Part shown: positions 2,980-25,499 of the stretch, one piece after another
Position numbering within the stretch: position 1 is the first letter of the stretch
Layout of the letters: each line of letters begins with the position of its first letter
Source of the DNA: a virus
Reading direction: 5' to 3' (one strand)
Virus record (IMG/VR): IMGVR_UViG_3300006641_000162
Location: 1-25,499 of that record
Length of the DNA: 25,499 nucleotides
The notes under the pieces: generated by a model
Told to the model about the DNA's origin: nothing
What the model saw: only the letters and a program-made list of their open reading frames with translations
Databases searched by the model: none
Program-made: the position numbers and the translations under genes

Positions 2980-3324
2980 TTATACCTTTACCTTTCTAAG
3001 AGCAGCTAGTTTCTTAAAACTATTTAACTCAGTAGTAAGCGCAGCTATTTCTTCTTGCAGCTTATTATTTTCAATATTAAGTTTAGTTAGTTGACTATTT
3101 AACTCAACTATATCTAACTGTAACTTAGTTAATTCTTCAGTAAGTTTACTATTCTGCTGACCCATACGCTCCAGCTCTTCGTGCATCATCTTGATAACAC
3201 TTGTTTCCGCATCAGTACTTCGCCAGTCTTTTAATAGTTTTTGCACTCCTACTGATAGTGCAATTATTGCCATAGCTGCCACAGAAATAGTTTGTACCAG
3301 ACTATGATTTTCTACTTCTACCAT
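2980..3324 (-). CDS. Membrane-anchored coiled-coil protein, possible lysis (spanin-like) or holin-like protein
   Basis: 114 residues from the ATG at 3322-3324, which has AAGGA 6 bases upstream. An ATG 9 codons earlier lacks such a site and was not used. Residues about 8-27 (LVQTISVAAMAIIALSVGVQ) form one hydrophobic membrane segment. From about residue 40 to 105 the protein is a heptad-patterned coiled coil rich in Leu, Glu, Asn and Lys, ending in a basic KVKV tail. One N-terminal anchor plus a long coiled coil is the layout of inner-membrane spanins (Rz-like), and also of some small phage membrane proteins of unknown role. No lipoprotein partner (o-spanin) or endolysin is seen nearby. It is the first gene after the promoter at 3447-3475 and so leads the last transcript. 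A lysis role is a guess; membrane insertion and coiled coil are directly visible. Confidence 0.75.
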   Translation of the reverse strand: MVEVENHSLVQTISVAAMAIIALSVGVQKLLKDWRSTDAETSVIKMMHEELERMGQQNSKLTEELTKLQLDIVELNSQLTKLNIENNKLQEEIAALTTELNSFKKLAALRKVKV

Positions 3325-3369
3325 TATAGTTCCTTTTTTCATAGGCAGCAATCTATATTTAGCTTATAT

Positions 3370-3916: not shown

Positions 3917-6217
3917 TTAAGTTGATTGGGTTATATACCAATAGCTAGTTCGTTTTGTTAATAATGCAGTTCCTCTAACCGCAGTTACGGTTACAGTAAC
4001 TGTTCTAGTTCCTTGATTACTGCCCGTTGTACCAGTATATGTGGCAATACGATTGCCGCTGTTTAGGGTAAATAATCCAACATTAGCAATAGCTCCAACG
4101 GAATTATCTGGCAGCACAATATTTTCAAAAAGTATATTTAGTGTAATATTTTGAGGTGCAGCAATATTAGACCTTACAGTAATAGTATAAGGCTGTCCAG
4201 TATAAGAACTAGAAACATCTACACTTATAATATCAAAAGTAAGATCTGCTACAGTAGACTTGCTTTCGCATTTAAACATTCCATAGTTAATCTCGCCACT
4301 GCTAGGTATATTACTAGAAGTATTTGGCACATAGCTACCGCCACGATAGTACTCGGTTAAATTTATTGGATTACTACCGCCAAACTCTTGTTGAATATCA
4401 CTAGCAGTAACTATATTAGGGTTAACTACTGTTTTAAATGAACTACTAGTTGAGGGTATAGCTAATCTATTAGGACTGTCTGATAGATTACCAGAGGTAT
4501 AAAAAGTACTAGTTGAATTTACTTGATTATTAACACTTACAGTATTATTAACTATAGCTGACCTAAAATTAGTTGTTGTTACTGCGCTAGTCCCACTATT
4601 AGCTCTACGCTCCTCTGCCCATAATGCACAAATACCTGCAACATTAGGGCTTGCTGCACTTGTTCCGCTAAACGGTCCTTGATTATAATTAGTATCATCA
4701 TAGTAAGCACTACTACCACCATATTGGGAAGCGCACAATAAATTATCTCCTGGTGCCCAAACGTCTACTCTAGGTCCTTTATTAGTATACCAGCTTAAAT
4801 TATCTGTTTCACTAGTTGCTCCTACAACGATAGGCCCTACTCCACTACTAGAGTATACATCCCAAAAATTAGCATAACTTTCTTGTATACTGCCAGCGGG
4901 CATTACACCTCTGTGTGTTGGTACAGCGTATGTGATAGTACTATCACCTAATTGATAGTACCAAAAACTTGTACTGCTTTGAAAATGTTGATTATATCTA
5001 GTTAAGCTATAGGCAGGAGTTATACTATATGTATTATGGTTACCTGCACTACCTATTAATACTACTCCTGGTGTAGTAGATAGATCTACAAAATCAGCCA
5101 TTATTGCTGCAGAATAGTAAGGTACTAGTAACTGCCAATTACTAGGTCCGCCATATGCAAAAAACGAATCACTGGTATATATCCATAAATTATAAGTATT
5201 ACGTAAAGCACTAACAGTAATTCTAGCTCCATCAATAAACATTTGACCATACCCATTATCCTGAAAATATCTTGGTAGTGGCTTCCAACCGCCACCATAA
5301 CCAGTATTTACAGTACTATTTACAATAGCCTGAGATATTGGAAATGTTAAATAGGTGCTATCGGTTAAAGTAGTGCCGGTAGATACACCAGTATCAATTG
5401 AGCTTGGAAAATAATTCCAACTCATATTTATAACTGTTGGGTTTTTATTACCATAGGTAGGATTATTCGGCTTATTAGCTATCCATGCTTGTATATAATC
5501 TACTAATGCATACCACTCTATATATCCTGCGGCTGTGTATACATAGGGTCCGGCAATATTATAAATATTAGCTTGTGGTGCCCAACCATGCCTACGACCT
5601 GCAGCTATACTAGCTACACTTGTTGCATGCCAGTCATCTACTCCAGCATATTGACTATAGTTATAATTACCTCCGCCATAGCTATAGCCTAATGATGCAT
5701 TATGTTGAAACCAGTTATAGTTAGCAAGTCTAGATTGTCCTAGGTGGTTTAACCAGTCTGAATGTCCCTGCTGTATATGTCCATCCCAAATTAATACGTC
5801 TATGTCTTGTCCACGACGATCAGTGCCAGAGTTGGTAAATGCTGAACCATATCTGGTAGTGTTACCACTAGTATAACCAAGATAGGCTTGATTAGTTTGT
5901 CGGGCTATATGCCAACTTTGATGCTTTTGACTGTTTAGTGTAGAAAATATTTCTCCAACTCTGGCTGTTGCTGGACCACTTGGTATAGGTCTATTTAATT
6001 CTACGGCTAATACTCTACTATCCTGTTTTAGTGTTTCAGCTTCCTCTGTAGTAAGCATATAATGTGTATTTCTGCTATAAGGACGCCTTACAGCAAGATC
6101 TACCGTTCTATTAGGAATATATAAGCTTTCGCCAGGAGTTTCCATATCTTGGTAAAATTCGTCTAAGTCTTCCTTATTACGTAGGGTAACTATATATTCT
6201 CGTAATTGGTCGCTCAT
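3917..6217 (-). CDS. Virion-associated subtilisin-family (S8) serine protease with tail-fibre-type C-terminus
   Basis: 766 residues. Residues about 8-75 look like an I9-type propeptide (YIVTLRNKEDLDEFYQDME ... SRVLAVELN), which normally folds and inhibits the protease. The catalytic domain spans about 90-545 and shows the whole S8 set: Asp145 (IDVLIWDGH), His197 (DDWHATSVASIAAG), oxyanion Asn393 (GSAGNHN) and Ser520 (FSGTSAASPNVAG). The usual HGT at the histidine is HAT. The domain has large Tyr/Asn/Gly-rich insertions. Around residues 605-650 there is a segment (SDIQQEFGGSNPINLTEYYRGGSYVP...IPSSGEI) familiar from tail and fibre proteins, then a beta-rich domain to the end. No secretion signal is seen. 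Start ATG 6215-6217 overlaps the S74 fibre stop by 4 bases. A particle-bound protease that digests host surface or biofilm protein, or matures tail proteins, is inferred. Confidence 0.85.
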   Translation of the reverse strand: MSDQLREYIVTLRNKEDLDEFYQDMETPGESLYIPNRTVDLAVRRPYSRNTHYMLTTEEAETLKQDSRVLAVELNRPIPSGPATARVGEIFSTLNSQKHQSWHIARQTNQAYLGYTSGNTTRYGSAFTNSGTDRRGQDIDVLIWDGHIQQGHSDWLNHLGQSRLANYNWFQHNASLGYSYGGGNYNYSQYAGVDDWHATSVASIAAGRRHGWAPQANIYNIAGPYVYTAAGYIEWYALVDYIQAWIANKPNNPTYGNKNPTVINMSWNYFPSSIDTGVSTGTTLTDSTYLTFPISQAIVNSTVNTGYGGGWKPLPRYFQDNGYGQMFIDGARITVSALRNTYNLWIYTSDSFFAYGGPSNWQLLVPYYSAAIMADFVDLSTTPGVVLIGSAGNHNTYSITPAYSLTRYNQHFQSSTSFWYYQLGDSTITYAVPTHRGVMPAGSIQESYANFWDVYSSSGVGPIVVGATSETDNLSWYTNKGPRVDVWAPGDNLLCASQYGGSSAYYDDTNYNQGPFSGTSAASPNVAGICALWAEERRANSGTSAVTTTNFRSAIVNNTVSVNNQVNSTSTFYTSGNLSDSPNRLAIPSTSSSFKTVVNPNIVTASDIQQEFGGSNPINLTEYYRGGSYVPNTSSNIPSSGEINYGMFKCESKSTVADLTFDIISVDVSSSYTGQPYTITVRSNIAAPQNITLNILFENIVLPDNSVGAIANVGLFTLNSGNRIATYTGTTGSNQGTRTVTVTVTAVRGTALLTKRTSYWYITQST

Positions 6218-8388
6218 TTACTTACCTTTTTATGTAACTCAATAATTGCTTCAATTATTAGTGGTATTAGCTTAGTGTAGTTTACCGCTAGTATGCCATC
6301 ATCTCTAGTTACTACGGCTTGGGGTAGTACACCAAGTACTTGCTGTGCAATAATACCTACATCATCCCTTTTAATATAGTTTTCTGGTAGAGAACCTAAT
6401 GATTGTAAGTGTTTATCTGTCCAAGTAAAATTATAACCACCTAACGACAGTATTTTTTCAAGCGCATTTGGTATTCTAACAATGTCCTGCTTTAATGCAA
6501 TATCTGAGCCTGAATAGGCTGTTACTTCGCCGGTTACTAATAAGCTGCCTTGCAAAGTATTAGACCAGGTACCATCGCCACGTAAAAACTGACCAGTAGT
6601 ACCACCACTAGGTAAGCTGCTAGTTGAAACTGTAGCCCAAGTACCGTCTGCTCGTAAATATTTTGTATTAGTGCCGTCTGGAGGACTTATAAGATAGCTA
6701 TTCCAATTTAACCAACCTTCAATTTTTAAAGCTGTGCCACCATTATTTGTATTTCTTGCAAATATACCTGGTTTTGATGTTATTAGTGAGCGACCCTCTA
6801 TACCTGCAAAACCATCTGGATTGCTTAGAATACCTACCAGTCCCCAATATCCGCTCGTATTACTAGTAAGTCCTAGTACACCAATGTCTGCGGTTCCGGT
6901 ATTATTTGCTCTTACAGCAGTAGTAACAGCAAATGCCGTAGATGTACTACCATCAAATATTGCGCTACCCCTAGCATAGAATCCGGTAGAATATATGTTT
7001 CCATTTGTGCGATCAATATAGTAGCCAGTAGTTCCCCAAGTACTAGGATTATTAGGCGTTAAACCATTTGCTGGATTATCGCCATCCCAATTATCGCTGC
7101 GTATATCTTGAAATATACTAGCAGCAATTGGTATGCTCCATACTGTAGTATTTGCAGGTATACCTTCTACTGCGCTAGCATTAGGATTATATCTGCCAAA
7201 ACTATACCACAATACCTGCCCTACTGTTACTGAACTAGCTGTTAGGCTATAGTCAGTGGGAGCGGTTGCACCACTGGTATCACTAGGTGCTGTTGTTAGT
7301 GGTGAGTCAGTTTGATTACGTACTCTATAAGCAGTAATGCTGCGAATACCTTGTAGGCCAGTACTGCCAGGATTACCTGGATCACCTTGATCGCCTTTAT
7401 CACCTTTTGCACCTGCCTTACTCTTACTAATAGAAAAAACTTTTGACAGTGTAGGATAGTTAGTTCTGGTTGCCGTTATAGTACAAGTACCGCTATCCAC
7501 CGCATTAGTTAAAGCTGTAGCAGTAACAGTAATATTATTAACGCCTGCACTAGTACCTTGCAACGTAGTGGTTAATCCAGTACTATCAGTTTTTGTAATA
7601 GTCCAAAGATTTGTTTCGTTTGTAATACCACGAAATATTGCACCATAAGTAACAGCACCACTATAGCTAGTTACAAATCCGTCATTTGCTGCAGGAACTG
7701 TATGTGATTCGTTTGTTAATATAAAGGTTAATGCGTCGCTGCCATTATCACCACGAAATATTGTTGTAACATCTGATAAAGTGCCTAAAGTTACTGTTAC
7801 TTTTACATATCTTACTGTGGTTGGGCCTAGTGCATTAAAATTAGCTGCGGTTAATACACGAACATCACCTGTACCAGTTAGTGTAACATTACCCAAACTA
7901 ACATTACTGCTATTATAAGCTACTGCTGTAAATGTTGGTGTTCCAGTAAGATTTTGTTTAACAGCAGTAAACGTTATACTTGCAGGATTTTCTGGTGTAG
8001 TAGCTAAACTATCCTTAAATATAAAAGCCCAATCTGTTGTATCAAGCGTTAGTAAGCTAACTCCTTCTGTTGTTGTTGCAGTTAACTGTGCTGATACATC
8101 TATAACTTCTGGCTCAATACTACTTATTAATGCGTACTTTACATAATAGGTAGTATTTTTTGTTAATTTTTGAGTTGCGTCGGCTAAGGGCCCATTAATA
8201 GTAATATTTAGACCACTACCATCATATGCAAGTATACCTTGACTAGGAGGATTAAAGCCTGATGTTGTACTATACCAGACTTTAACTCCTATTAAGTCAT
8301 CTCTAACGTCGCTAGTTCTTATACTGTCATATGGCGTATCAATAATTAAGCTTAGGGATTCTAGTCCAGCATATAATCTTGCTGCCAT
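6214..8388 (-). CDS. Tail fibre with collagen-like segment and S74 intramolecular chaperone
   Basis: 724 residues, ATG 8386-8388 preceded by AGGA. Residues 1-310 are beta-rich (Ig/Fn3-like spacing, Thr/Val-rich strands). Around 320-350 seven Gly-X-Y triplets (GAKGDKGDQGDPGNP...) form a short collagen-like trimer segment. Residues about 350-620 look like a trimeric receptor-binding or shaft region. The C-terminus is a peptidase S74 domain: Ser628 and Lys633 in SDIALK match the Ser-Asp...Lys dyad of this family, followed by GYNFTW, DDVGIIAQQV and a C-terminal helix (NYTKLIPLIIEAIIELHKKV). In this family the chaperone trimer folds the fibre and then cuts itself off before the serine, releasing here about 97 residues. 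It follows the tail-tip protein by 9 bases and overlaps the subtilase start by 4, so it is made from the same transcript. Confidence 0.9.
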   Translation of the reverse strand: MAARLYAGLESLSLIIDTPYDSIRTSDVRDDLIGVKVWYSTTSGFNPPSQGILAYDGSGLNITINGPLADATQKLTKNTTYYVKYALISSIEPEVIDVSAQLTATTTEGVSLLTLDTTDWAFIFKDSLATTPENPASITFTAVKQNLTGTPTFTAVAYNSSNVSLGNVTLTGTGDVRVLTAANFNALGPTTVRYVKVTVTLGTLSDVTTIFRGDNGSDALTFILTNESHTVPAANDGFVTSYSGAVTYGAIFRGITNETNLWTITKTDSTGLTTTLQGTSAGVNNITVTATALTNAVDSGTCTITATRTNYPTLSKVFSISKSKAGAKGDKGDQGDPGNPGSTGLQGIRSITAYRVRNQTDSPLTTAPSDTSGATAPTDYSLTASSVTVGQVLWYSFGRYNPNASAVEGIPANTTVWSIPIAASIFQDIRSDNWDGDNPANGLTPNNPSTWGTTGYYIDRTNGNIYSTGFYARGSAIFDGSTSTAFAVTTAVRANNTGTADIGVLGLTSNTSGYWGLVGILSNPDGFAGIEGRSLITSKPGIFARNTNNGGTALKIEGWLNWNSYLISPPDGTNTKYLRADGTWATVSTSSLPSGGTTGQFLRGDGTWSNTLQGSLLVTGEVTAYSGSDIALKQDIVRIPNALEKILSLGGYNFTWTDKHLQSLGSLPENYIKRDDVGIIAQQVLGVLPQAVVTRDDGILAVNYTKLIPLIIEAIIELHKKVSK

Positions 8389-8397
8389 ATTATTTTC

Positions 8398-11300
8398 CTA
8401 TTTAATTGTAGTAATAGTTATAGTTCCTAAGGTACTAATTGAACTATAATTATCATTTTTATCTATTGCTCTACAAGCTATTCTATAAGCAATACCTGTA
8501 CTAGATATTCGTGGAGTTGGAAATTCTTTTAAATTAAACACGCCAACTGTAGTATTTTTTACAGTTTTTATACCGTATTTAGTTACATCTAGATTCCAAA
8601 AATCTCCACTTCCGCTATTTTTATATAGTCTAAATTCATACTCTTTAAAGCTTGGATCAGTACTATTTAAAACACCATCAATAGAAATGCTAGAAATTGT
8701 CTGTGTTTTATCTACTTGCCAGCTATTACCACTGCCACTAACTATATAAGTATTAGGTAATATACCGTTTCCAATTAGTAACATTCCTACTTTAGGTGTT
8801 CCACTAGATAGATTACCTATTGTAAGAGTTGTCCCACTTATGCTAGAACTTGTACTAGTAAACGAAATACTAGGTAAAACTACAATATAGTGATTAGATA
8901 AATCTACGGTTAATTCTGGAGATTTCAGTAAGGTTATACTCTTTCCTTCAATAGCAATAATTTTAATATCGCTCCACGGACCAACAATACTACCTATACT
9001 ATTTATATACCGAGCTCTAATTTTGTATACTTGACCAGCTATTAAACCTGTAATAGTTAAAGAACTTTGCTCTTTAAATATCTCATACCTTTGATTGGCA
9101 CCAACTACATCAAAGCTGCCATTTCCTGGTATAATCTCTAGCTGTATTTTTTCTGCTTGTACGCCTACATCTTCTGGATGTGTAAAACTAATTATAGTAA
9201 CGTTTTGATAGCTTCCAGGAGATAATTGTTCGCTTAATGGACTTGTACTAGTTGTTCCTACAATAATAGGCGATTTAGTTATACTATTTTTTACAATATA
9301 ATTGTTTGTTAAAGTTATATTACTAGAATAGGCTGGTAGGTCTACATTAGTATCTAATAGATCTAAAGAGTATATACTTGGGGAATAATCTACAAGCGTA
9401 AGTCTGGCGCTTAAATTAGAACTAGGCTCAATAGCTAAGACTATTAACTCTTGGGTTTCTTTACTAGTTTCGCCGACCATATATAGATTATCTGCCTCTA
9501 CACCATCACCTACTAATATAGATTGAGTTAGTGTAACTGTACTATAGTATCCTGTAGTTGCAACAGCTGTTAGAGTTCTTAATACGTAACCTGTGCCACT
9601 CGTTGCGGTAATGTTATTAGTTCTTATACGAATCTGATAAGTTTTTGAAGATTCTAAATAAACCTCATCTGATAATACTACGCTAGTTCCAGTATATGAT
9701 TTTATTCTTCCAGTTCCATTACCCCAAAGAGGAACATCGTGCGATACGCGTACTAAGTCGCCACGAGTACATACAAGATATTCAAAATCTACATTGAGTG
9801 TATATGTTTCAGGACGTAATTTTAGTTGTGCAAAATGAAATCTGGCTAAATATTTTGCTTGTGCTGCATTAGTAACACCAGGTAGATTTAGTTCTTCGAT
9901 TAATTCTACTGTACTCTCTGTTTTACCAAAGTTACAAACTATTAATTCATCTTGTTGATAAGATTTTTCTTCATTGATAAAACTTATTCTAAATGCATCC
10001 GGTATTCTTGGTAATGTTTTGGTACTTTCAAATCCCCAGCTATTATGTGGTGTAAAATGCTGAACTACATGACTACGAGCCTGTTCAATAACAACGCTCC
10101 ACTTTCCATCTATATACGTTGGACTAGCCATTCCAGCTGCACATATATCTCTAAGTACATCCATAACACTACGAGTATCTGATACTACTGCATTATATCT
10201 TAACTGTGGACGAGTAGCTGAACCATCACAAAATTGATGCCAAGCACTTATTGTAGTTAAATCTATTTCTGTATTAATATTTGTTACTCTATATGGCTTT
10301 GGAATAGCTGGATGTGTTAACACATATATAAATAAAGAAGCAGGATTATTTATAATACTATTAGGAACGAATTGGTTAGTACTACTATTCCAATCAAATC
10401 CAATAGTTTCTACTATTGCATTTACTCCCTCTATTTGTCCATTTATTTTATTTGAACTTTGAATTTGCATAGCGGTTTTAGCTAGCAAACATTCTGGTGG
10501 ATTAAGCATGGGTTTGTTATTACTATAACCTACGCTATTGATATACACACAGCGATGATAGTTTCTATAATCTCCCTGACCACTTGCATCTTCTTCTAAA
10601 CTACTGTTTATTCTACGAACTCTAAGTTTATAGCTAGAAGCTTGTACTACTGTATACATACCTGTTCCGGCAGCAGTAGTTAAACTAACAGTAGTAGATA
10701 GATTCTCTAGTGTACTAATAGTAATTTTCTTATTATCTAAATCTATAGACTTAATATAATAATTAGTATTTGTGGTTATTCCGCCAAAAGTTGTACCTTG
10801 AAATTTAACTCTATCTCCAACACTAAAAGCTGTGATAGATCCGCAGGTAAGCTTATTATCTACAGAATTAGTAGATGTAATTTGAATTGGGCTAGACTGT
10901 GCTTTTGCACTTAGCTGCTTAAATTCATGAACATAATTAAAAGCATCTTTTTGTCTTTCAAAAAATCCGCTTGCTCCAATTGTAATAATAGTTTGAGCAC
11001 TTGGAGAGCTATTTTGTGCAACATTGTCTGTATAACTAACTCTGCACGCTATACCAGCAGCACCACCTGTATTAGTAGCTGTTAATTGTAATGTGTGCGA
11101 ACCGCTTGATATATATCTTTCAACTGTGGCCCAGCCGGCATGCCCACCCTTAGGATAATCAATTACTAGGGCACCATCTAATAATACTTGTCCATTATCG
11201 TCACTACTAAATTCTATCTTATAAATGCCGCTTTTTGTTAAATTTAATATTTTTGTTTTATCAAAAGTTGCAGCTTGATTTGCAGCAGTTGTCCATACAC

Positions 11301-13353
11301 CGTAAATATTTATAAACTCGCCCCAAATACCTGACTCAATATTTAGAATAGTTTGAGATACTGGCTCAACATCTAAGAGCTGTCTAGTGTTAAATATTTC
11401 GGTAACGGTACCACTTACATTAGGTTGCCCACTTACTAATTGTGTTAATTGACCTGGCCCAATTCTTACAATATCTAAAATAGGGGCTGGTGGACTATAA
11501 GGATCTACATAGGCGTAATTAGTATTCTCTAAGGTAAGAGCTAATCCTTGGTATCCTTGACTATAATATGTAGTTAGGTGGTCTACTGTTTTAGCTGTTT
11601 GTATTCCATTACTACCAAAAATAACTACGCTATATAGTTTTATAAACCCATTGGGTATGGTTGGCTCATATAAAAAAGTATTGGTACTACTAATAAGTGC
11701 TTTATAGGTTGCGTCTGAATATAAGCTACTTAAGTTATTACTAGGAATACTATCTTCTACATCAGTGGCTGCTCCACTAAATCTACTTATCTGACCATTA
11801 GGTCCAATACAGTAAGTATGTTTTTGCCATAGCTGTATAGTTTCGCCATTGGAATCTACATAAAATGCGGGTGGAAGAGTATTTCTATACTCAGTTTCTA
11901 ATTTATAAGCAGGCCTATTATCAGCACTGGTTTCAGTCCATGCTTGTGTTCCAATACTATCGCCTAAATAGTATTTTTTAAGCTGAATCTCTAGTTGACA
12001 AGTAGCTTGTCTAGAGGTGCCAGAATTTTCGCCTTTAGTAATAATCTGGCGCATACCTTCTGGAAAATTAAAAGCTACGTCAATACTATTTACTGGATCA
12101 GTAAATGTTGCTTCTGTCCAAGGATTTCCTGCAGCAGCTGTATTTACTAATTCTACACTTGTACTGCCTGCTGCTACCTGTACATCTGTAGGATATAATT
12201 TTTCAAAACTTTCTACATCCTCTTTTGGCTTGCCATATAAGGTGATAGGAGTTGGAACCAATCCTGGTAAGTTATCTTGATAGTAATCCTCAATTTGGTT
12301 AGCACCAATGCAAATATCACGAACATTTAATGGGCCAAAACCCCACACAATAACTTGATTTAGTACAGTAGTAGTTGTTTTAGTTTTTATATAAGGCGTT
12401 GCACCTAATAAACCTGTATATCTAATTCTACCTAATACAACTGGTATAGGTCCGAATCTGTTAATTTGATTGCTACTGCCAGTAAATAAACCTAGCTGTA
12501 CTGGACTACCGGGATCTTTTTGTTCAGGTGGTCTAATAGGTAATACAGCATTTAATAATGCCATGCCAGCTACCTGAATAGCTGCTGCTGTTGCCACAAA
12601 AGTAATTTGTGCTAAACCTCCAGCAGCCGCAGCAGCAGCAGCTGTTGTGCCAAGTAAAGCACCTGCTGCATATGGTGCAGCAATAGCTATAGCAAATGTT
12701 AATGCTAGTCGTAAACCTTCGCGACCTTGCGGCACACTTTTATAAGTAATAGTTTGTCCAGGTTCTAATCTAGTAGTAGACCAGCGATCACGATTAATAA
12801 TTTCTCCATCTATCATAATTATTAATCTGCTAGCAATATGTTTGCCTAAATTATATTTATCAACTAAATATTTTGCAAATTCTAGGCAGGTAGTACCAGC
12901 TTGAGCTACTTCTAAAATAGTGGCTTGGCGTAATGGATGTGGTCTAGTAACTACTTGAATGGCACTTTGTTCACTATAGGAGTATATACCTTCTAATCTA
13001 CGATTCCATTTGTAATTTTGTAGTGATTCAATAACACTATCTTTACCATCTCTGCAATGCAAAAATTCTGACTGACCTATATAAATACCTACATGCGTAG
13101 GTTCGCCTAATATATTAAAAACGCAAACATCACCTGGTTTAGGTGATGTTGTTTGATTCCAGGTAATTTTTGTATGTTTTACAAAATCAGCTAGATACGG
13201 ATCATTGGCTCCTGTATAATTTTCTATATAGCTAGGTAGATCAATATTAAATTCGTTTCTATAAAAAAGGCGAACTAAGCCCCAGCAATCTACGCCGTGC
13301 TCTGTTCTGCCATTCTCTTGATATGGTAAGCCAATGTATTTTGTATAATCCAT
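8398..13353 (-). CDS. Fused tail-tip protein: NlpC/P60 peptidase + gpI-like + gpJ-like central tail fibre
   Basis: 1651 residues. Residues 1-125 are an NlpC/P60 cysteine peptidase (lambda gpK type): Cys23 in HGVDCWGL, His87 in THVGIYIG and His99 in FLHC. Residues 135-210 have a ubiquitin/ThiS-like strand pattern (IIMIDGEII ... LEPGQTITYKSVP), then Ala/Gly-rich hydrophobic stretches at 213-272, as in lambda gpI. From about 285 (NRFGPIPVVLGRIRY) it is gpJ-like, including the conserved region near 1020-1100 (W..FCDG ... SVMDVLRDICAAGMASP). An insert near 685-775 (SGIYKIEFSSDDNGQVLLDG ... GSHTLQL) resembles a PA14 carbohydrate-binding domain. An Fn3-like domain lies near 1370-1468. Start ATG 13351-13353 overlaps the upstream stop (TAATG). 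It should form the tail tip hub, cut peptidoglycan and contact the receptor. The stop is TAG. Confidence 0.88.
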   Translation of the reverse strand: MDYTKYIGLPYQENGRTEHGVDCWGLVRLFYRNEFNIDLPSYIENYTGANDPYLADFVKHTKITWNQTTSPKPGDVCVFNILGEPTHVGIYIGQSEFLHCRDGKDSVIESLQNYKWNRRLEGIYSYSEQSAIQVVTRPHPLRQATILEVAQAGTTCLEFAKYLVDKYNLGKHIASRLIIMIDGEIINRDRWSTTRLEPGQTITYKSVPQGREGLRLALTFAIAIAAPYAAGALLGTTAAAAAAAGGLAQITFVATAAAIQVAGMALLNAVLPIRPPEQKDPGSPVQLGLFTGSSNQINRFGPIPVVLGRIRYTGLLGATPYIKTKTTTTVLNQVIVWGFGPLNVRDICIGANQIEDYYQDNLPGLVPTPITLYGKPKEDVESFEKLYPTDVQVAAGSTSVELVNTAAAGNPWTEATFTDPVNSIDVAFNFPEGMRQIITKGENSGTSRQATCQLEIQLKKYYLGDSIGTQAWTETSADNRPAYKLETEYRNTLPPAFYVDSNGETIQLWQKHTYCIGPNGQISRFSGAATDVEDSIPSNNLSSLYSDATYKALISSTNTFLYEPTIPNGFIKLYSVVIFGSNGIQTAKTVDHLTTYYSQGYQGLALTLENTNYAYVDPYSPPAPILDIVRIGPGQLTQLVSGQPNVSGTVTEIFNTRQLLDVEPVSQTILNIESGIWGEFINIYGVWTTAANQAATFDKTKILNLTKSGIYKIEFSSDDNGQVLLDGALVIDYPKGGHAGWATVERYISSGSHTLQLTATNTGGAAGIACRVSYTDNVAQNSSPSAQTIITIGASGFFERQKDAFNYVHEFKQLSAKAQSSPIQITSTNSVDNKLTCGSITAFSVGDRVKFQGTTFGGITTNTNYYIKSIDLDNKKITISTLENLSTTVSLTTAAGTGMYTVVQASSYKLRVRRINSSLEEDASGQGDYRNYHRCVYINSVGYSNNKPMLNPPECLLAKTAMQIQSSNKINGQIEGVNAIVETIGFDWNSSTNQFVPNSIINNPASLFIYVLTHPAIPKPYRVTNINTEIDLTTISAWHQFCDGSATRPQLRYNAVVSDTRSVMDVLRDICAAGMASPTYIDGKWSVVIEQARSHVVQHFTPHNSWGFESTKTLPRIPDAFRISFINEEKSYQQDELIVCNFGKTESTVELIEELNLPGVTNAAQAKYLARFHFAQLKLRPETYTLNVDFEYLVCTRGDLVRVSHDVPLWGNGTGRIKSYTGTSVVLSDEVYLESSKTYQIRIRTNNITATSGTGYVLRTLTAVATTGYYSTVTLTQSILVGDGVEADNLYMVGETSKETQELIVLAIEPSSNLSARLTLVDYSPSIYSLDLLDTNVDLPAYSSNITLTNNYIVKNSITKSPIIVGTTSTSPLSEQLSPGSYQNVTIISFTHPEDVGVQAEKIQLEIIPGNGSFDVVGANQRYEIFKEQSSLTITGLIAGQVYKIRARYINSIGSIVGPWSDIKIIAIEGKSITLLKSPELTVDLSNHYIVVLPSISFTSTSSSISGTTLTIGNLSSGTPKVGMLLIGNGILPNTYIVSGSGNSWQVDKTQTISSISIDGVLNSTDPSFKEYEFRLYKNSGSGDFWNLDVTKYGIKTVKNTTVGVFNLKEFPTPRISSTGIAYRIACRAIDKNDNYSSISTLGTITITTIK

Positions 13354-14264: not shown

Positions 14265-17200
14265 TTATCTCCTTGCTACCATAGGTTTAGTTCCAAAACT
14301 ATTTACAAATGATTGCTGTATGTTACTATTTGGTCTGCTTATTTCACCGGCTACTAAGTCTGCAACAATAACTTCTATACGGCGATTACCACGACTATCA
14401 GTAGTTTCACGAGTTTCAGCACGAGCTTGTGTATAATTATTTACTACAACCTCTACATTACCCTGATTAGTGCGAACACCTAGATTACCCTGACTATCGC
14501 GCTTTAGGGGCATAATGGCTTCGGGTCCTGCTTCGCCCATAACACCTAGACCTTGTGCTGCACGGAAAAATGTAGGTTGATTAACTATACTATTAGTAAA
14601 CATTCCACCATTAGCATAAGCTTGTATGCCACGATTAAATGCTCCGCCCATTGCTAGTGTATATCCAAATCCTGGAACGGCAGTATTTGATGCGCTAAAC
14701 GTATCACTACTATACCCGCCAAATCCAAATAAGTTGCTTAAAAATTTCTGTAAATATGGTCTACTTGTTGCATATGCTTCATGTGCTTGTAATCTTAGTT
14801 CATATCTAGCAATATCAGCTATAAAATTATTAATTAAGTCTTTAAAATTAAACTTACCTGTTTTGGCAAATTCAACTATAGCGTCTGCCATGCTTTCAAA
14901 CATAGATTTAAAAGCAGTGCTATATTTTTCCATTCTAGGAGTAATATCTAGTTCTCTATTTATTAATTGAATACTATTAACAGATTTTATTCTTAGAGCA
15001 TCTATTGCTTCCATAACAGTTTTAAGATCACTTAACGCTTTTATTTGTTCAGGTAATAACTGTGCTTCTTGAGTAACAATCTCTCCCCCGTCTATCATAG
15101 TTTGGCGAGGTTGGGTAAGTGGATTCTTTGCAGCTAAATCTCTTAATGTTTGCTCCAGCTTAGATTTTTCCTGTAGTAGCCTAAAACTTTCTCTATCGTA
15201 GTCTAATTGTACTTTTTGACGAGCTATATCAGCTTTTGCCAATTGAGCATTTCTATCATTGATTAAACCTAGTCTTTGCTGAATATCTAAATCTTGTTCA
15301 TTTAATGATATTATATGTTCTCTAGCTGTAGTTATAGTATTATACTGATTTGCTTCTCTGGCTAACGATGCTTCTAGTTTAGCCATATTTACAGCTTGTT
15401 CTAAAACTAATATATTTTGCTTACGCTGAGCTTCATTACCCTGTATTATTAAACCATTAATAAGTTTTTTACCTGCTATAGCTTCTTTATCTGCTTCAAC
15501 TGCCGCTAATAAACCTTGTAATTGGACATTTTGAGCTGGTGTTAAACCCTCGCTATTTGCATTTGCAAGTCTAAACGCTGCTAGTTTTGCCTCACTAAGA
15601 ACTAGATTTTTATTCAGGGATAATAGTTCTTCTTCCATACGGGTTTGCTCTATAAGTCTATCTAATCCTTGGCGACGTTGTTCTGCTAGGAGCCCTTCAC
15701 CGATTATTAGCCCTTTTTGAGCTTCAGCAATAGATATAATAATATCTAATTTGCGTTTTTCCTCTAAATATGTTTTTTGTGCTGCATTTTGTAGCTTAGT
15801 TTCTTGAGTAGTTTGATCTAGTTTCTTTTTAGCAACTGCATCTTCATATTGAGCTCTAGCTCTCGATGCTGCTAAATCTTCTGGTGGTTTTGAGCTTTTT
15901 GCTAAAACATCTAGCGCGTCTAATTTTGCTTTAGTGGCAAGATTAATTTTTGCAGTTTCTTGTTCATAGATAGTTAGTGCATAATCCATTTGAATTTGTA
16001 TTCGTTCTGGAGTATCTGCACCTATATTACTTAGAGCAGTATTTAAAGATTGAATCTCGTCATCTATAGCTTGAATTGCTTGTTGTGCTTGTAAATTAAT
16101 AGTATCAATTTCTTTACTAATTAAAGTTTGTTCTTTCTTATATTCACTGCCTTTTACTTTTAAAGATCTTGTTAGATTTCTGTTAAATGCACTAGCAAGA
16201 TTCGGAAACATTTGTAGATATTTTGCTATTTCAGCTTCAAATTCTTTTTGTGTTAAACCTAAGCTCTTTGCGTCACCAGCAACTAATTGTCTAGCTCTAT
16301 TAAATAATTCGGGATTTGTTCTGTCTAATAGTTTACTAATTTCTGTTTTTTCTGTATCCGTTAACTGTTGCGATCCTGGTTTGTTAGCTAAAAAATCTGT
16401 AGCACGAGTTTGTAATTCTGTTAATCGCCTAGCGTCACGCTCACCTTGTATTGTGTAATTAAGATCGTCTATACTTTTAGCTAAGTCATAATTTGCATTT
16501 ACTAGTTGTTCTTCTATACTAATTAACTGTAAATCTAATTTTGCCTGATATGCTATTCCTTCAACAGTTTTTACAGGATTTTTAGAGGCAATAAACTTTG
16601 CTTGCTCTACACCAAGTTTTTGAAATTCTAGTTTGAATTTTTGAATTGTAGCAGCTGCTTGCTCTGCAACACTTTTACTTATAGCAATACCAACGGCTTG
16701 AGTTAGTTCTGCAATTACTTTTTGACCACCTTTAACTGTTTTCTCTAATTCTTCTTTTAATTTTAATTTACCTTCAAGCTCTAATTGTTCGCTAAACCAT
16801 AAGAACCCTTTATCTTTAAGTTCTTCAATTCTAGTATTAACTTTTGTAAGTTCTTTACTAGCGGCATCTAGTGGTTCTTGCAATCTTTCAAATTCATCAC
16901 TAAGTCTAGCTACTTCAACAGCCGCTTCTCCAAATAATGCACCAAAATTAGCTCCTTTTAAACTATCTAATGCTGCTGCCTGCGTACGAAAATCACTAGA
17001 TTCTAAAGCTTTATTTAATTGCTGAACATATTTAAGATTATTTTCTTGAAATGTAGTAATTTTACTAGTATCTTTAAGACTATTCATAAATTCAGAAGCT
17101 GATTTTTCAGCATTTCTAGATTCTTCTTTTAAGCCTTTTAAGTACAATGTTTGTTCTTGAAATTTCTTGTTTGCTTCTTCAGTAACTTTAGTAATTTTGC

Positions 17201-19310
17201 CTTGCATTTCAGCATATTTCTCACTAGAGACAAATATACTATCTAAAGCATTAGTGACTACTTTTGCATCTAGTGGTTTTTTAGGGTCAACACCTAGAAT
17301 ACTAGATATATCTTCTCTATATTTTTTCGCTTCTGGTCTATCACCTAATGTAGTAAGTTGAGCTTGCACTGCTGTACCAACTGCTTTAGCAGCTTTTTCC
17401 TGCAAACTATCCATACCAGGAATTAAGTTTTTAATACTTTCTAACATCTTATCAAACGGATTAGCAGCAGCAGCGGCTTCATTAAAAGAATCCGTAGTAG
17501 CGCGCATAGCCTTGCTAACACTGTCAAAACTATTTGCATAAGCTAATAGTGCTTCAGTACTTAAACTCATCTTATATTTTTGATTTACATCTGTAGCAGT
17601 TTTTACAGTATCATTTAATTGATCTACTTTAGTATTAAAGGCTTCTATTTCTTTTGTATTTTTATGTATATATGGAGCTAGAAACTCATAGGCAGCTATA
17701 ACAAGTCCAATAATTTTAAGAAATGGAGATAAGAAACTTAAAGCAGTTCTAATAGTTACTCCAATGATACTTATTACTGCAGCTACTCTAGTTCCTGCTC
17801 TAGCAAAAAATCCCATACTAGTACTAGCAGAGTTTAATAATTCGCTTAATTTTTCAAGAGCAGCGATAGGTCCTTGTTCTTGAGCAACATCTGTTACTTG
17901 ACTTCTAATATCAAGACTACGTGCTCTAGTATTCTCCATTTCAGCAATTTTAGCTTTCATAAACCCCCACGTATCTTTAAGCAACGTGGGTTCATTTTTC
18001 ATTCTTTCTTCTGTGGCTTGAGCAATATCATTTTGCTTTTGTCGTTCTTTGCTAATTTCTCGTTGATTTTTTAATATCGTTGATTGCATGCGTATTACTT
18101 CATTATCACGCTTAATTATTTCAACAATAGTACCAACTTGTTTTTTCTTTGCATCGTCTATTTGCTTTTCAAGACTTAAGTTTTCATTAGCTAAATCCAT
18201 TACTCGTTTTTGGCTAGCACTCATGCCTGCTTTATCTGCTAAACGGGTATATTGTCCATGCCAAGCATCATCACTCATTCCAGAAGCAATTCTAGCACTT
18301 TCTTTAGCTGTTTCTCTGAGCCATTCATTATAATTTTGTAGAGCTGGAACAGCTTTTGTTATTAATTTACTAGCAATTACAGCAATTGCTCCACCAATTA
18401 ACACCTGATTATCTGCAAATATTTTTGCTATTGGACCTACAATACTATTTATTATTGTTAATATTTTTGTACCAGTATCTTTTAGTGTTGCTAATAGTTT
18501 GTCGTACGGATTACCTTCTTGTGCAATTTCTGCAAATTTATCTCTGCCTTCCTTTAACACAGCATTTGCAAATGCTTGGCGGCGCTCAAAGTCCGTTAGC
18601 TGACTTTCGCTTTTACCAACTGTACGTGCATAATCACTAACAGCTTTATCTAGTTTAGTAAATATACCAAGTTCGTCTAATAGTTCTGGCTCTAGTTTAG
18701 TAATACCGCGAGTTAATCTACTAACGGCATCATTCATATTTACACCTAAAGCCTGACTTGCACCTTTGGCTACAGTTGCTATTTGTAGAACTTGTTCTTG
18801 TCCTAATCCACTGGTAGTAGCTTTAGTTACTGCTTCGGCTGCTTCTCTAAAACTAATCATTCCATCTGTGGCTTTTAGAAAGCTAGTACTCATGCTTGCT
18901 AAGCTATCGCCTGTTGAGGCGCTTAGTTGTTCCATACCCTTAATCATTATTTGGGTATCCATAGCATTTCTAAGTGCTGTAAAAGCTGCGCTTACCGCAA
19001 ATAAATTAGCTGCATATTCTGCATATAATCTAACTAAACCACCCAAGCCACGAGCTTGATCAGCAAAGTCACGAGCACTACCACCAGCACGTTCGCCAGC
19101 TCCACGAGCAATATTATAGGCATTTACTTCGCCGCCAAAACCAGCTTGACGAGCGGCTCCAGCACCCGTTCTGGTGCCAGTTGTGCTGCGCATTAAATTT
19201 TGTGAGCGCTCTAGCTGCTCATTTAATTTCTTAGCATCATTTGTACGTGTTTGTAGCGTTCTGCTCTGATCTTGTACACTAAGATTGATGTCTATACGGT
19301 TACCTGCCAT
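14265..19310 (-). CDS. Tail tape measure protein
   Basis: 1681 residues, ATG 19308-19310 with GGAG 5 bases upstream, and its own promoter about 55 bases upstream. The long Lys/Glu/Gln/Leu-rich helical body (about 330-500 and 580-1420), hydrophobic stretches near 90-115, 285-315 and 505-550, and the lambda-type C-terminal region (about 1455-1510, ESMADAIVEFAKTGKFNFKD) identify a tape measure. The C-terminal segment MGEAGPEAIMPLKRDSQGNLGV is the hallmark end of lambda gpH-like proteins. It fixes tail length during tube assembly, with the chaperones encoded upstream bound to it, and may form a membrane channel at infection. At roughly 0.15 nm per helical residue the tail would be about 250 nm, an estimate only. 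No lysozyme or other enzyme domain was recognised. It is about twice the length of lambda gpH. Confidence 0.95.
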   Translation of the reverse strand: MAGNRIDINLSVQDQSRTLQTRTNDAKKLNEQLERSQNLMRSTTGTRTGAGAARQAGFGGEVNAYNIARGAGERAGGSARDFADQARGLGGLVRLYAEYAANLFAVSAAFTALRNAMDTQIMIKGMEQLSASTGDSLASMSTSFLKATDGMISFREAAEAVTKATTSGLGQEQVLQIATVAKGASQALGVNMNDAVSRLTRGITKLEPELLDELGIFTKLDKAVSDYARTVGKSESQLTDFERRQAFANAVLKEGRDKFAEIAQEGNPYDKLLATLKDTGTKILTIINSIVGPIAKIFADNQVLIGGAIAVIASKLITKAVPALQNYNEWLRETAKESARIASGMSDDAWHGQYTRLADKAGMSASQKRVMDLANENLSLEKQIDDAKKKQVGTIVEIIKRDNEVIRMQSTILKNQREISKERQKQNDIAQATEERMKNEPTLLKDTWGFMKAKIAEMENTRARSLDIRSQVTDVAQEQGPIAALEKLSELLNSASTSMGFFARAGTRVAAVISIIGVTIRTALSFLSPFLKIIGLVIAAYEFLAPYIHKNTKEIEAFNTKVDQLNDTVKTATDVNQKYKMSLSTEALLAYANSFDSVSKAMRATTDSFNEAAAAANPFDKMLESIKNLIPGMDSLQEKAAKAVGTAVQAQLTTLGDRPEAKKYREDISSILGVDPKKPLDAKVVTNALDSIFVSSEKYAEMQGKITKVTEEANKKFQEQTLYLKGLKEESRNAEKSASEFMNSLKDTSKITTFQENNLKYVQQLNKALESSDFRTQAAALDSLKGANFGALFGEAAVEVARLSDEFERLQEPLDAASKELTKVNTRIEELKDKGFLWFSEQLELEGKLKLKEELEKTVKGGQKVIAELTQAVGIAISKSVAEQAAATIQKFKLEFQKLGVEQAKFIASKNPVKTVEGIAYQAKLDLQLISIEEQLVNANYDLAKSIDDLNYTIQGERDARRLTELQTRATDFLANKPGSQQLTDTEKTEISKLLDRTNPELFNRARQLVAGDAKSLGLTQKEFEAEIAKYLQMFPNLASAFNRNLTRSLKVKGSEYKKEQTLISKEIDTINLQAQQAIQAIDDEIQSLNTALSNIGADTPERIQIQMDYALTIYEQETAKINLATKAKLDALDVLAKSSKPPEDLAASRARAQYEDAVAKKKLDQTTQETKLQNAAQKTYLEEKRKLDIIISIAEAQKGLIIGEGLLAEQRRQGLDRLIEQTRMEEELLSLNKNLVLSEAKLAAFRLANANSEGLTPAQNVQLQGLLAAVEADKEAIAGKKLINGLIIQGNEAQRKQNILVLEQAVNMAKLEASLAREANQYNTITTAREHIISLNEQDLDIQQRLGLINDRNAQLAKADIARQKVQLDYDRESFRLLQEKSKLEQTLRDLAAKNPLTQPRQTMIDGGEIVTQEAQLLPEQIKALSDLKTVMEAIDALRIKSVNSIQLINRELDITPRMEKYSTAFKSMFESMADAIVEFAKTGKFNFKDLINNFIADIARYELRLQAHEAYATSRPYLQKFLSNLFGFGGYSSDTFSASNTAVPGFGYTLAMGGAFNRGIQAYANGGMFTNSIVNQPTFFRAAQGLGVMGEAGPEAIMPLKRDSQGNLGVRTNQGNVEVVVNNYTQARAETRETTDSRGNRRIEVIVADLVAGEISRPNSNIQQSFVNSFGTKPMVARR

Positions 19311-20255: not shown

Positions 20256-21503
20256 TTATGCGTAATATTTGACGTTAATTTCGTTAGCTTCTTCAAGATC
20301 AAAGTTGCGAACGCCATTAATTGTATCAGTACCTTGAGCAGTAAAGTTAATAGTTGTACTAATAACTTGCTCAGTAGCAACTGTTGGAATAGTAAGCACT
20401 ACACCAGGCATTTCGATTTCTACACGATCATTAGCAGTAGAACCACCAATTACAAGTTTCATATAAAATCTAGGATCTACTGTGGTACTGCTACCTGCTA
20501 GCAAATCTTGTAACAACTGTATAGTTTGTTTACGTCCGGTGGTTGGATCGCTAGTATTAGCGGCACCAGTAGCACTACCACTACGTAAGTAAGCTGTAAC
20601 ACTACCACTAATTGCACGTGTACCAGCAAAATATGTAACTGGATTGTTAACAATACCTAGGTTAGCAGGTGTTAAGTAACTAACGTTGTTGCTAATTGTT
20701 AGGTTACCACCCGTAATGGGTAGGTTGTAATAGGTAGTTGTAGCAGGAGGTGTTCCTGGACTGCCTAAGCCTGCCTGTAGTGTAAAGGTGCTAAGCTTGT
20801 TGGCAATAAACGCAGCTGTAGTAATCTTTTGTGCAAATGTACTAGCATTAAATATGCCACTACCAGTAAATGAGCCACTACCAATTGCTGTTGGGCCAGT
20901 AATTGGTCTAATTGCTTTAGCCTGTCCTGCCCAAGCAATGCTGGCAATAGCGTCAATACCGAAATCAATAGTTGCTGTGTTTAACACGCAATCATCAATT
21001 AAAAAGCACGCTGTGTCCATAATAACAATTAAACCAAAGCGCTGTAGCTGGTGCTTGTTACTATTTGTAGCTACTACAGTAGCAGGAGTTTCTGGAGTAA
21101 CTGTACTATCACCGTTTGTCCAAGCTGGACTAGTTCCACCAATTGGATCAACAGCAAACATTGCGTTCCATAATACACTTTCTTCAGCTGTAAGAATAGT
21201 GCCGTCGTCATATGGACGAATGTAAGTAGTCATGTTAAAATCAACAGGATCTAGCTGTGTGTTAAAAGTACGCTGTCCACGTACAGGTACAGCACCTGTT
21301 TCATTTAGTGTAATTGTTTCCGATGTAGTATTTTGACTAAACCCAAAACCGTCTAATACTTGAATTTCACGGGTATTAGTATTACTAATTACAGCATTAC
21401 CGCCAGCTGCTAGAGCTCCACCAATAACTCCTAGAGCAGAACCTGTATCACCTACTGCAGTAGTAAAAAACACTCTACTATTACGAAGTAAATTAAAACT
21501 CAT
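20256..21503 (-). CDS. Major tail tube protein
   Basis: 415 residues, ATG 21501-21503, with AAGGGA 6 bases upstream. The N-terminus (SFNLLRNSRVFFTTAVG...) is followed by IQVLDGFGFSQNTTSETITLNE and a QLDPVDFNMTTYIRPY segment. The C-terminal half has ITGGNLTISNNVSYLTP, FAGTRAISGSVTAYL and MPGVVLTIPTVATEQVISTTINFTAQG. These strand motifs are typical of tail tube proteins of the larger siphoviruses, which stack as hexameric rings around the tape measure. The length is well above lambda gpV (about 250) and suggests extra surface domains. Base composition is slightly richer in G+C than in the tape measure, as expected for a very highly expressed gene. It follows the tail terminator after 78 bases and is followed by the hairpin at 20221-20243. 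Tube assignment rests on position and motifs. Confidence 0.85.
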   Translation of the reverse strand: MSFNLLRNSRVFFTTAVGDTGSALGVIGGALAAGGNAVISNTNTREIQVLDGFGFSQNTTSETITLNETGAVPVRGQRTFNTQLDPVDFNMTTYIRPYDDGTILTAEESVLWNAMFAVDPIGGTSPAWTNGDSTVTPETPATVVATNSNKHQLQRFGLIVIMDTACFLIDDCVLNTATIDFGIDAIASIAWAGQAKAIRPITGPTAIGSGSFTGSGIFNASTFAQKITTAAFIANKLSTFTLQAGLGSPGTPPATTTYYNLPITGGNLTISNNVSYLTPANLGIVNNPVTYFAGTRAISGSVTAYLRSGSATGAANTSDPTTGRKQTIQLLQDLLAGSSTTVDPRFYMKLVIGGSTANDRVEIEMPGVVLTIPTVATEQVISTTINFTAQGTDTINGVRNFDLEEANEINVKYYA

Positions 21504-24265: not shown

Positions 24266-25499
24266 TTAAACGTAACGAACTGTTACAACACCACTACCTT
24301 CATTGCTTGTTAAGCGGCTCATAGCGATACGCATACTAGCAACGATAACACGGCGCTGGTTGATAACTTCGTCATCTGTGTCAATACGCATTGCACGATG
24401 GTTACCAACAACAAAGTTACGTGGGTTAACTAGAACAGCTAATGCATCGTTAGCAGCTGCACCTGTCATTTGTGCACTAACAACAACTGGAGTTTGGGCG
24501 ATTAGTCCAACTTGACCAGTAATTAGTGTGTTACGTGACTCACTAATCTTGTCTGTGCTTTGGAAAGTAGCATCTTCTAGTAGATCATAATATGCTGCTT
24601 GGCTAACAAAGCAGATTAGTTCGCTAGGCTCTAAGCCCCAAACACCTAGTGCACGACGAGCAGCTTGGAATTTAGCAAATGTAAATCCTGTTGCTCCAGT
24701 ACCACCAACAGCAACTGTTGGGCTGCTTGTAGCGCTACCGTCATAATATGCTAGACCATTGATACCAGCCGCATATGTTGTAGCACCAACGTCATTACCT
24801 AATAACATAGACTTGTCTAGTGTCTTAGCCATACGACGTGTGATTGCATCACGGATGATAGGTACTAGGGCGATAAGACCATCTTCCTCTTCTTCAAAGG
24901 CGATGTACTCTTTGGTAGCTAGTTTAGCGCTGCTGATTTCAATGTCTTTGAGCGCATGTGTACGAGCTGTACCACTGCTAGCTGCAGCACCAAAATCACT
25001 ATTTGCTACCCAGGTTGCATCTGCACCAGCATCTGGATTGATAGGCAGCTTCATGAAAGGCTGTGGCATAGCGATCTGACGGATTGTACCAGCAACAACT
25101 AGCTGACGACGAATCTCGTTTTCCATGTTGGTACTAACTTCTAGTTCCCAAGTTTGACCTGGTAGGCGAACTGCACCACCAGCACCGCCACCACTACCTG
25201 CAGCACCAGCTGTACCACCACTAGCGTACTTTTGTACTAGGCTCTTGGCATACTTAGTTTCTTCGATAGGCTTTTTAGTGATCTTGCTGATAAATACAGC
25301 AGCTTCTTTTTCTGCATATGTAGGACCACCGTCGCTGCTCTTAACATCACTAAACTGCATACGGCTCTTTTGAATAGCTTCTAGCTCAGCAGCTTTTTCA
25401 CGTAGTGCACTCTCTAGGCCTTCTAGGGCGCTCTTGTGGCTGTCAGCTTGCTCGGCTAGGCGCTTTTCAACTTCAGCTAATAGCTTTTCTGCACCTGTG
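24266..25499 (-). CDS. Major capsid protein, HK97 fold (N-terminus cut by the window edge)
   Basis: The frame is open through the right edge (410 codons visible), so ATG 25358-25360 is internal, not the start. The visible N-terminal 46 residues (EKLLAEVEKRLAEQADSHK ... LREKAAELEAIQKS) are a charged coiled coil, which together with the Ala/Gly-rich spacer (KYASGGTAGAAGSGGGAGGA) looks like a delta-domain scaffold that HK97-type capsids cut off on maturation. The main domain begins near VSTNMENEIRRQLVVAGTIRQIAMPQP and includes an E-loop-like KLPINPDAGADATWV region, LIALVPIIRDAITRRMAKTLDK (spine-helix-like) and a C-terminal strand VVTVRYV. A maturation protease and portal would be expected upstream, outside the window. 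The gene is near 50% G+C, against about a third in the tape measure, and leucine is mostly CTA, as if selected for very high expression. Confidence 0.88.
   Translation of the reverse strand, partial: TGAEKLLAEVEKRLAEQADSHKSALEGLESALREKAAELEAIQKSRMQFSDVKSSDGGPTYAEKEAAVFISKITKKPIEETKYAKSLVQKYASGGTAGAAGSGGGAGGAVRLPGQTWELEVSTNMENEIRRQLVVAGTIRQIAMPQPFMKLPINPDAGADATWVANSDFGAAASSGTARTHALKDIEISSAKLATKEYIAFEEEEDGLIALVPIIRDAITRRMAKTLDKSMLLGNDVGATTYAAGINGLAYYDGSATSSPTVAVGGTGATGFTFAKFQAARRALGVWGLEPSELICFVSQAAYYDLLEDATFQSTDKISESRNTLITGQVGLIAQTPVVVSAQMTGAAANDALAVLVNPRNFVVGNHRAMRIDTDDEVINQRRVIVASMRIAMSRLTSNEGSGVVTVRYV

Follow-up and report, generated by a model that had tools for sequence, protein, structure and literature searches.

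A predicted subtilisin-type protease encoded behind the tail fibre of a lambda-like siphophage, and its relatives in aquatic phages

Genomic context of the subtilase gene

The stretch of DNA analysed here (25,499 nucleotides of the IMG/VR virus record IMGVR_UViG_3300006641_000162, hereafter referred to as the window) carries the structural module of a lambda-like siphophage, encoded on the minus strand. The minus-strand genes of this module include those for the major capsid protein (24266-25360), the major tail protein (20256-21503), a tape-measure-like protein (14265-19310), minor tail proteins and, directly preceding the fibre gene, a 1651-residue central tail protein (8398-13353) in which an NlpC/P60 peptidase (NLPC_P60, E 6.1e-16), a lambda tail gpI-like region and a gpJ-like region (phrog_31, E 1.9e-71) are fused, with a PA14 domain inside. 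The best match of the window gpJ is that of Curvibacter phage P26059A (36% identity over 62%), and comparison of the fibres of the two phages found them to be unrelated. The window fibre (6214-8388, minus strand, 724 aa) consists of an N-terminal part shared with the fibres of sister phages, a collagen-like stretch and a C-terminal Peptidase_S74 intramolecular chaperone domain (6313-6507, minus strand; residues 628-692, Pfam E 8.1e-11).

The subtilase gene follows at 3917-6217 on the minus strand, has an ATG start and encodes a 766-residue protein identified by matches to Pfam Peptidase_S8 and phrog_9158 and by an AF2 model of residues 1-590. Its start codon and the fibre stop codon share a 4-nt ATGA overlap (6214-6217, minus strand), which is identical in the related loci L005 and L006, and the ribosome-binding site, AAGG, occupies 6225-6228. 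The original prediction, namely, that an S8 protease gene lies at this position and is translationally coupled to a fibre gene with an S74 domain, is borne out by the ORF boundaries and the Peptidase_S8 match, by the overlap, which makes translational coupling likely, and by the S74 match. On the other side of the subtilase gene, a 123-aa coiled-coil ORF (2980-3351) has weak Rz-like spanin similarity only (E about 1e-3), and the 'coiled-coil/fibre block' described there may therefore include a lysis gene.

An intact S8 catalytic domain is predicted

Pfam Peptidase_S8 matches residues 151-562 of the subtilase (57.7 bits against a cut-off of 21.8, E 1.5e-15), and together with the fold match this places the catalytic domain at about residues 136-562 (4532-5812, minus strand). 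As had been proposed, the catalytic triad and the oxyanion asparagine occupy the usual S8 family motifs, i.e., Asp145 (codon 5783-5785), His197 (5627-5629), Asn393 in an SAGN motif (5039-5041) and Ser520 in GTSAAS (4658-4660), all read from the minus strand. When 58 diverse members drawn from phage records, IMG/VR and GTDB genomes are aligned, the first three are invariant (58/58 each) and the serine is present in all 57 members that reach that position, while mean column identity is 23% and most members are at 30-38% identity. Viral relatives were retrieved by peptide patterns free of catalytic residues, so the conservation of these residues was not selected for. Set against proteinase K-like chains, the S8 family profile placed the H, N and S motifs, and it placed the D motif in aqualysin. 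In this domain, the spacings from His197 to Asn393 and from Asn393 to Ser520 are enlarged by insertions; the first of them is 196 residues, compared with about 91 at the equivalent place in subtilisin. Relatives also have insertions, including a further insert domain.

With the 58-sequence alignment, the AF2 model of residues 1-590 reached a mean pLDDT of 79.9 and a pTM of 0.87; it was used instead of a 16-sequence run, in which the mean pLDDT was 34.7 and residues 1-77 alone were usable. Foldseek aligned this predicted model with a proteinase K target at a TM of 0.80, with PCSK9 including its prodomain (5vlh) at 0.70, and with unprocessed pro-subtilisin E (3whi) at 0.67-0.68. The model thus has the predicted fold of proteinase K, in line with the original prediction, the fold match standing in for the distances among Asp145, His197 and Ser520. 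Relative to its 71% identical counterpart in L006, the gene has a dN of 0.215 and a dS of 1.45 (dN/dS about 0.15) and is therefore under purifying selection.

Taken at the level of sequence and model, the gene is predicted to encode a catalytically intact subtilisin-type protease. Chance similarity to S8 is ruled out by the Pfam match, the invariant catalytic residues and the fold match. A second candidate identity came from nomenclature, as the 'subtilisin-like domain' of Pfam Phage_sheath_1 denotes a structural sheath protein that has no protease role. This was likewise rejected, since the window protein matches Peptidase_S8 and no sheath profile in Pfam, and has the name alone in common with the sheath domain. 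Compared with classical members of peptidase family S8 (proteinase K, subtilisin, PCSK9), the window protein is alike in fold, catalytic residues and propeptide arrangement, but it differs in its long insertions, its viral tail context and its lack of a secretion signal, and its proteolytic activity is a prediction.

Propeptide-like N-terminus and C-terminal parts

The N-terminal domain (residues 1-77; 5987-6217, minus strand) is I9-like in its predicted fold, and the region is aligned in full-length relatives. Residues 6-74 are predicted to be ordered beta-alpha-beta-beta-alpha-beta, as in an I9-type fold, with block pLDDT values of 71-94, and the alignments to pro-subtilisin E and to PCSK9 with its prodomain are long enough to span this domain. 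The Pfam I9 model gave no match up to E 1; the propeptide originally proposed is hence supported by fold order in the AF2 model and by structural alignment, but not by the family profile. The lack of a secretion signal, also part of the original prediction, extends to the whole family, in which no hydrophobic N-terminus was found.

Behind the catalytic domain lies an FGGSNPI...EYYRGGSYVP...IPSSG segment (about residues 600-650; 4268-4420, minus strand), which recurs in 24 phage records, including phages of Vibrio, Xanthomonas, Stenotrophomonas and Lentibacter, and in loci L035-L038. The proteins that share it are encoded beside fibre-like genes and are nearly always annotated as hypothetical. 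The segment had been called typical of tail or fibre proteins; its recurrence in phages agrees with this, whereas its fibre-typical character is one of gene position only. In L036-L038, small ORFs begin with it, each overlapping by 1 nt the fibre-like ORF before it, and for this reason it may be an attachment element in the window lineage. The remaining C-terminal domain (residues 651-766; 3920-4267, minus strand) is predicted to be beta-rich at low confidence and gave no convincing sequence relative in the PDB. Residues 641-766 are nevertheless the part most conserved between the window and L006 (83% identity).

A family of phage subtilases

The window subtilase matches phrog_9158, a profile of unknown function, in two stretches (E 1.7e-57, best 2-281), and its sequence marks it as a divergent member of this uncharacterised family. 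At least 575 contigs in IMG/VR encode relatives, among them contigs 275 kb and 383 kb in length, and so do 32 GenBank phage records, 31 of which are Synechococcus phages, where their names vary between hypothetical, peptidase and subtilisin-like serine protease. The family thus spans siphophages, cyanomyoviruses and jumbo phages, and the arrangement of a subtilase behind a fibre gene can no longer be regarded as unusual among aquatic phages, as a virion subtilase had been at the outset. The search of 84,980 GTDB genomes gave two full-length relatives among the matches listed, both in metagenome-assembled contigs, and no relative was matched in plasmids; provisionally, the family may be considered virus-specific.

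The members of T4-like cyanophages are 26-42% identical to the window subtilase. Those of S-H38, S-H9-1, S-WAM2 and Sf-FR1 (annotated 'subtilisin-like serine protease') and of S-CREM1 ('peptidase') resemble it in having the N-terminal and S8 domains in one ORF, the same catalytic residues, and a position directly behind a fibre or tail-pin gene. They differ in that cyanophage members mostly follow a fibre with a conserved C-terminal domain (see below) and lack the FGGSNPI segment and the C-terminal part, whereas the window member belongs to a lambda-like siphophage and follows an S74 fibre. Several relatives are fused to further domains of a binding or surface-active kind, e.g., to Laminin_G_3 in S-SCSM1 (1411 aa), to LCCL and Ig-like domains in L008 (2493 aa), and to a GDSL-lipase-like domain in L081 (1273 aa; a weak match below the Pfam cut-off).

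Coupling to fibre genes and the conserved upstream domain

Among the 105 non-redundant members that have an upstream ORF, the subtilase starts within -4 to +5 nt of the end of that ORF in 100, as compared with 177 of the 593 other neighbouring pairs at the same loci. In 91 of the 105, the upstream ORF ends in one conserved C-terminal domain of about 125 residues, which is mostly 45-70% identical between otherwise different fibres and for which no relative was found in the PDB. Several of the remaining 14 follow another subtilase in tandem (a script counted 5, to which L012 and L018 add two cases with a cut or duplicate neighbour). Examples of the upstream proteins contain baseplate or fibre attachment domains, e.g., T4_gp9_10_N in S-H38 and Mtd_N in L010. 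The window fibre departs from this common family feature, as it ends in S74 and not in the conserved domain; throughout its lineage (the window, L005 and L006) an S74 fibre is the partner of a subtilase that carries the FGGSNPI segment and a further C-terminal part.

The conserved domain is also found in cyanophages without this subtilase, often with another large protein directly after it, and in some of these phages the following protein is unrelated and has no S8 match. Examples of 608-851 aa lie directly behind such fibres in L002 (3181-5511), L044 (4581-6884), L003 (3828-6383) and L154 (6269-8095); they are not subtilases, gave no Pfam match where scanned, and are candidate alternative tip proteins. 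In S-CAM1, the protein that directly follows the conserved domain (C030809_094; L153 6275-8530) is annotated as a putative proximal tail fiber, yet it is a divergent S8 subtilase (Pfam S8 E 3.5e-10, Foldseek E 1.8e-18) with a Glu apparently at the catalytic Asp position. That one C-terminal domain precedes subtilases, the divergent S-CAM1 subtilase or other large proteins suggests that the fibre C-terminus may be a dock for an exchangeable tip protein. Separately, a giant S-BM3 gene annotated 'peptidase S8' (SBM3_00202, T4-GC_519; L154 1-3307) lies a few genes upstream of the fibre; VrlC of S-SCSM1, its possible counterpart, matches DUF4815 and not S8.

Comparison with sister phages

The gpJ of the sister phage at L164 is 78% identical to that of the window, and the fibres of the two phages share an N-terminal part of 134 residues (64% identical) and differ in their distal part. 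L164 has neither the S74 domain nor a subtilase, i.e., the subtilase is missing jointly with the S74-type distal fibre. The locus L163, which is truncated, is otherwise nearly the same as L164. Since L164 keeps the fibre N-terminus without the distal fibre and the subtilase, the latter belongs to the variable distal tail tip and not to the core assembly machinery. This swap was seen in one lineage, with three loci that have the subtilase, L164 that does not, and L163 like L164. The comparison favours a role in host contact, within a small sample and with the proviso that a fibre-specific maturation enzyme would co-vary in the same way.

Virion association of a relative

Mass spectrometry of S-SCSM1 cyanophage particles purified on CsCl is reported to have detected 45 proteins (PMC9602691), and 48 CDS in the genome record of this phage (MK867354.2) are flagged as virion proteins. 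The three non-structural proteins named as detected (ORF91, 213 and 214) are all flagged, whereas SSCSM1_245, a predicted short tail fibre, lacks the flag (MK867354.2, PMC9602691); the flag therefore very probably records detection, although not letter for letter. Among the flagged proteins is the subtilase relative SSCSM1_228 (QFG06492.1), named 'baseplate wedge subunit (virion protein)', which is thus probably a known virion protein. Like the window subtilase, it is an S8 family member at a tail locus (Foldseek match E 1.5e-27); unlike it, it has 1411 aa and is fused to a Laminin-G-type lectin and structural domains. The window subtilase is itself considered likely to be located on the virion. 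The original prediction of an unusual tail-fibre-associated protease stands in its catalytic assignment and in its fibre association, the latter supported by the flag of SSCSM1_228, and falls in the word unusual.

Proposed role and alternatives

A somewhat better than even case can be made for a virion-borne, propeptide-controlled protease that is exchanged with the fibre tip and cuts a host surface protein. In this model, the subtilase would be translated beside the tail fibre, kept inhibited inside the producing cell by its N-terminal propeptide, and built into the particle at the distal tail, where it may attach to the tip of the window fibre. Contact with a new host would bring about activation, and the enzyme would then cleave a surface protein of the cell or one in the matrix around it, by which the fibre could reach its receptor or the surface could be cleared. 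It may be likened to a virion depolymerase that acts on protein, as virion-associated depolymerases and tailspikes are tail enzymes with a similar proposed role in clearing the surface at adsorption. The virion enzymes reviewed to date mostly act on polysaccharides, and peptidase activity is named only for the poly-gamma-glutamate hydrolase of phage PhiNIT1, which cleaves peptide but is not a subtilase (PMC5380687). The computed basis of the model consists of the intact S8 domain with its conserved residues, the proteinase K fold with a propeptide-like domain, purifying selection, tight coupling to a fibre gene in unrelated phages, and co-variation with the distal fibre; further support comes from the record and literature on the S-SCSM1 relative and its probable presence in purified particles, as well as from the binding or surface-active domains to which relatives are fused and the attachment domains of some upstream proteins. 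For surface proteolysis by the window subtilase in particular, the balance tips modestly in favour.

The main rival explanation is a fibre or tail maturation protease, which would have the neighbouring fibre or some other tail protein as its substrate inside the producing cell, e.g., in chaperone trimming, and be a structural passenger at most. Much of the genomic context would look alike for such an enzyme: the gene strictly adjoins the fibre gene and is likely to be coupled to it in translation, the upstream C-terminal domain shows the strong conservation expected of a substrate or docking site, and subtilase and distal fibre are both missing from L164. The S74 domain, however, is of the type that cleaves itself, so the window fibre needs no such helper; the lectin, LCCL and lipase-like fusions of relatives would not be expected of a maturation enzyme, and the conserved upstream domain also precedes unrelated proteins without an S8 match. 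Maturation is for these reasons considered unlikely. Alternatively, the protein could be a subtilisin-fold adhesin that mainly binds a receptor, catalysis being secondary or lost in some members. Fibre-tip adhesins of other phages are encoded at the position held here by the subtilase, the S8 region is rich in aromatic residues (14% F/W/Y), and the divergent S-CAM1 relative appears to have Glu in place of the catalytic Asp; pure binding, however, would not require four catalytic residues to be invariant across 58 diverse members, nor the propeptide-like domain to be kept, and this reading is judged rather improbable. A non-virion protease that works inside the host or at lysis and lies in the tail module by chance is very unlikely, for although the virion flag belongs to the S-SCSM1 relative and not to the window protein, that fused relative is flagged, and the place behind fibre-like genes is fixed across siphophages, cyanomyoviruses and jumbo phages.

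Beyond the window, it is put forward tentatively, a little short of an even call, that phage tail proteases may include a large class so far unrecognised, built as two-gene cassettes in which an S8 tip protease is paired with a fibre that has either the conserved docking domain or an S74 tip. Such cassettes would be exchanged between siphophages, cyanomyoviruses and jumbo phages, and their proteases would give access to the host by cutting surface proteins instead of polysaccharides. The protein is not of a new kind, given that subtilase genes are already annotated in cyanophage tail regions and that one relative is probably an established constituent of virions. Judging by the journal articles searched, neither the siphophage version with its S74 fibre nor the size of the family, the statistics on coupling or the exchange between sister phages appears to have been described, and these articles included no paper on the activity of these phage subtilases. 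If the proposed role holds true, many aquatic phages would breach a barrier of surface proteins (S-layer, pili, outer-membrane or matrix proteins) by cutting, and protease modules would help to set host range. As the family is abundant, includes cultured cyanophages and has one mutable serine, the idea is directly testable. The assignment also provides names for genes now called hypothetical, as well as for the S-CAM1 'proximal tail fiber'.

Tandem subtilases

Pairs of subtilase genes in tandem occur in L009 (4358-9285), L010 (5702-10626), L020 (3217-8134), L032 (10001-14925), L098 (7218-11574) and L081 (8007-14890), including a case on a 383-kb contig. The members of a pair differ in length, which suggests duplicated enzymes with different specificities. 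At L081 (5572-14890), a spike-like protein with weak Gp5_OB and Peptidase_M15 matches is followed by two subtilases, the second of which is weakly GDSL-lipase-like, and this locus possibly encodes a multi-enzyme tail tip.
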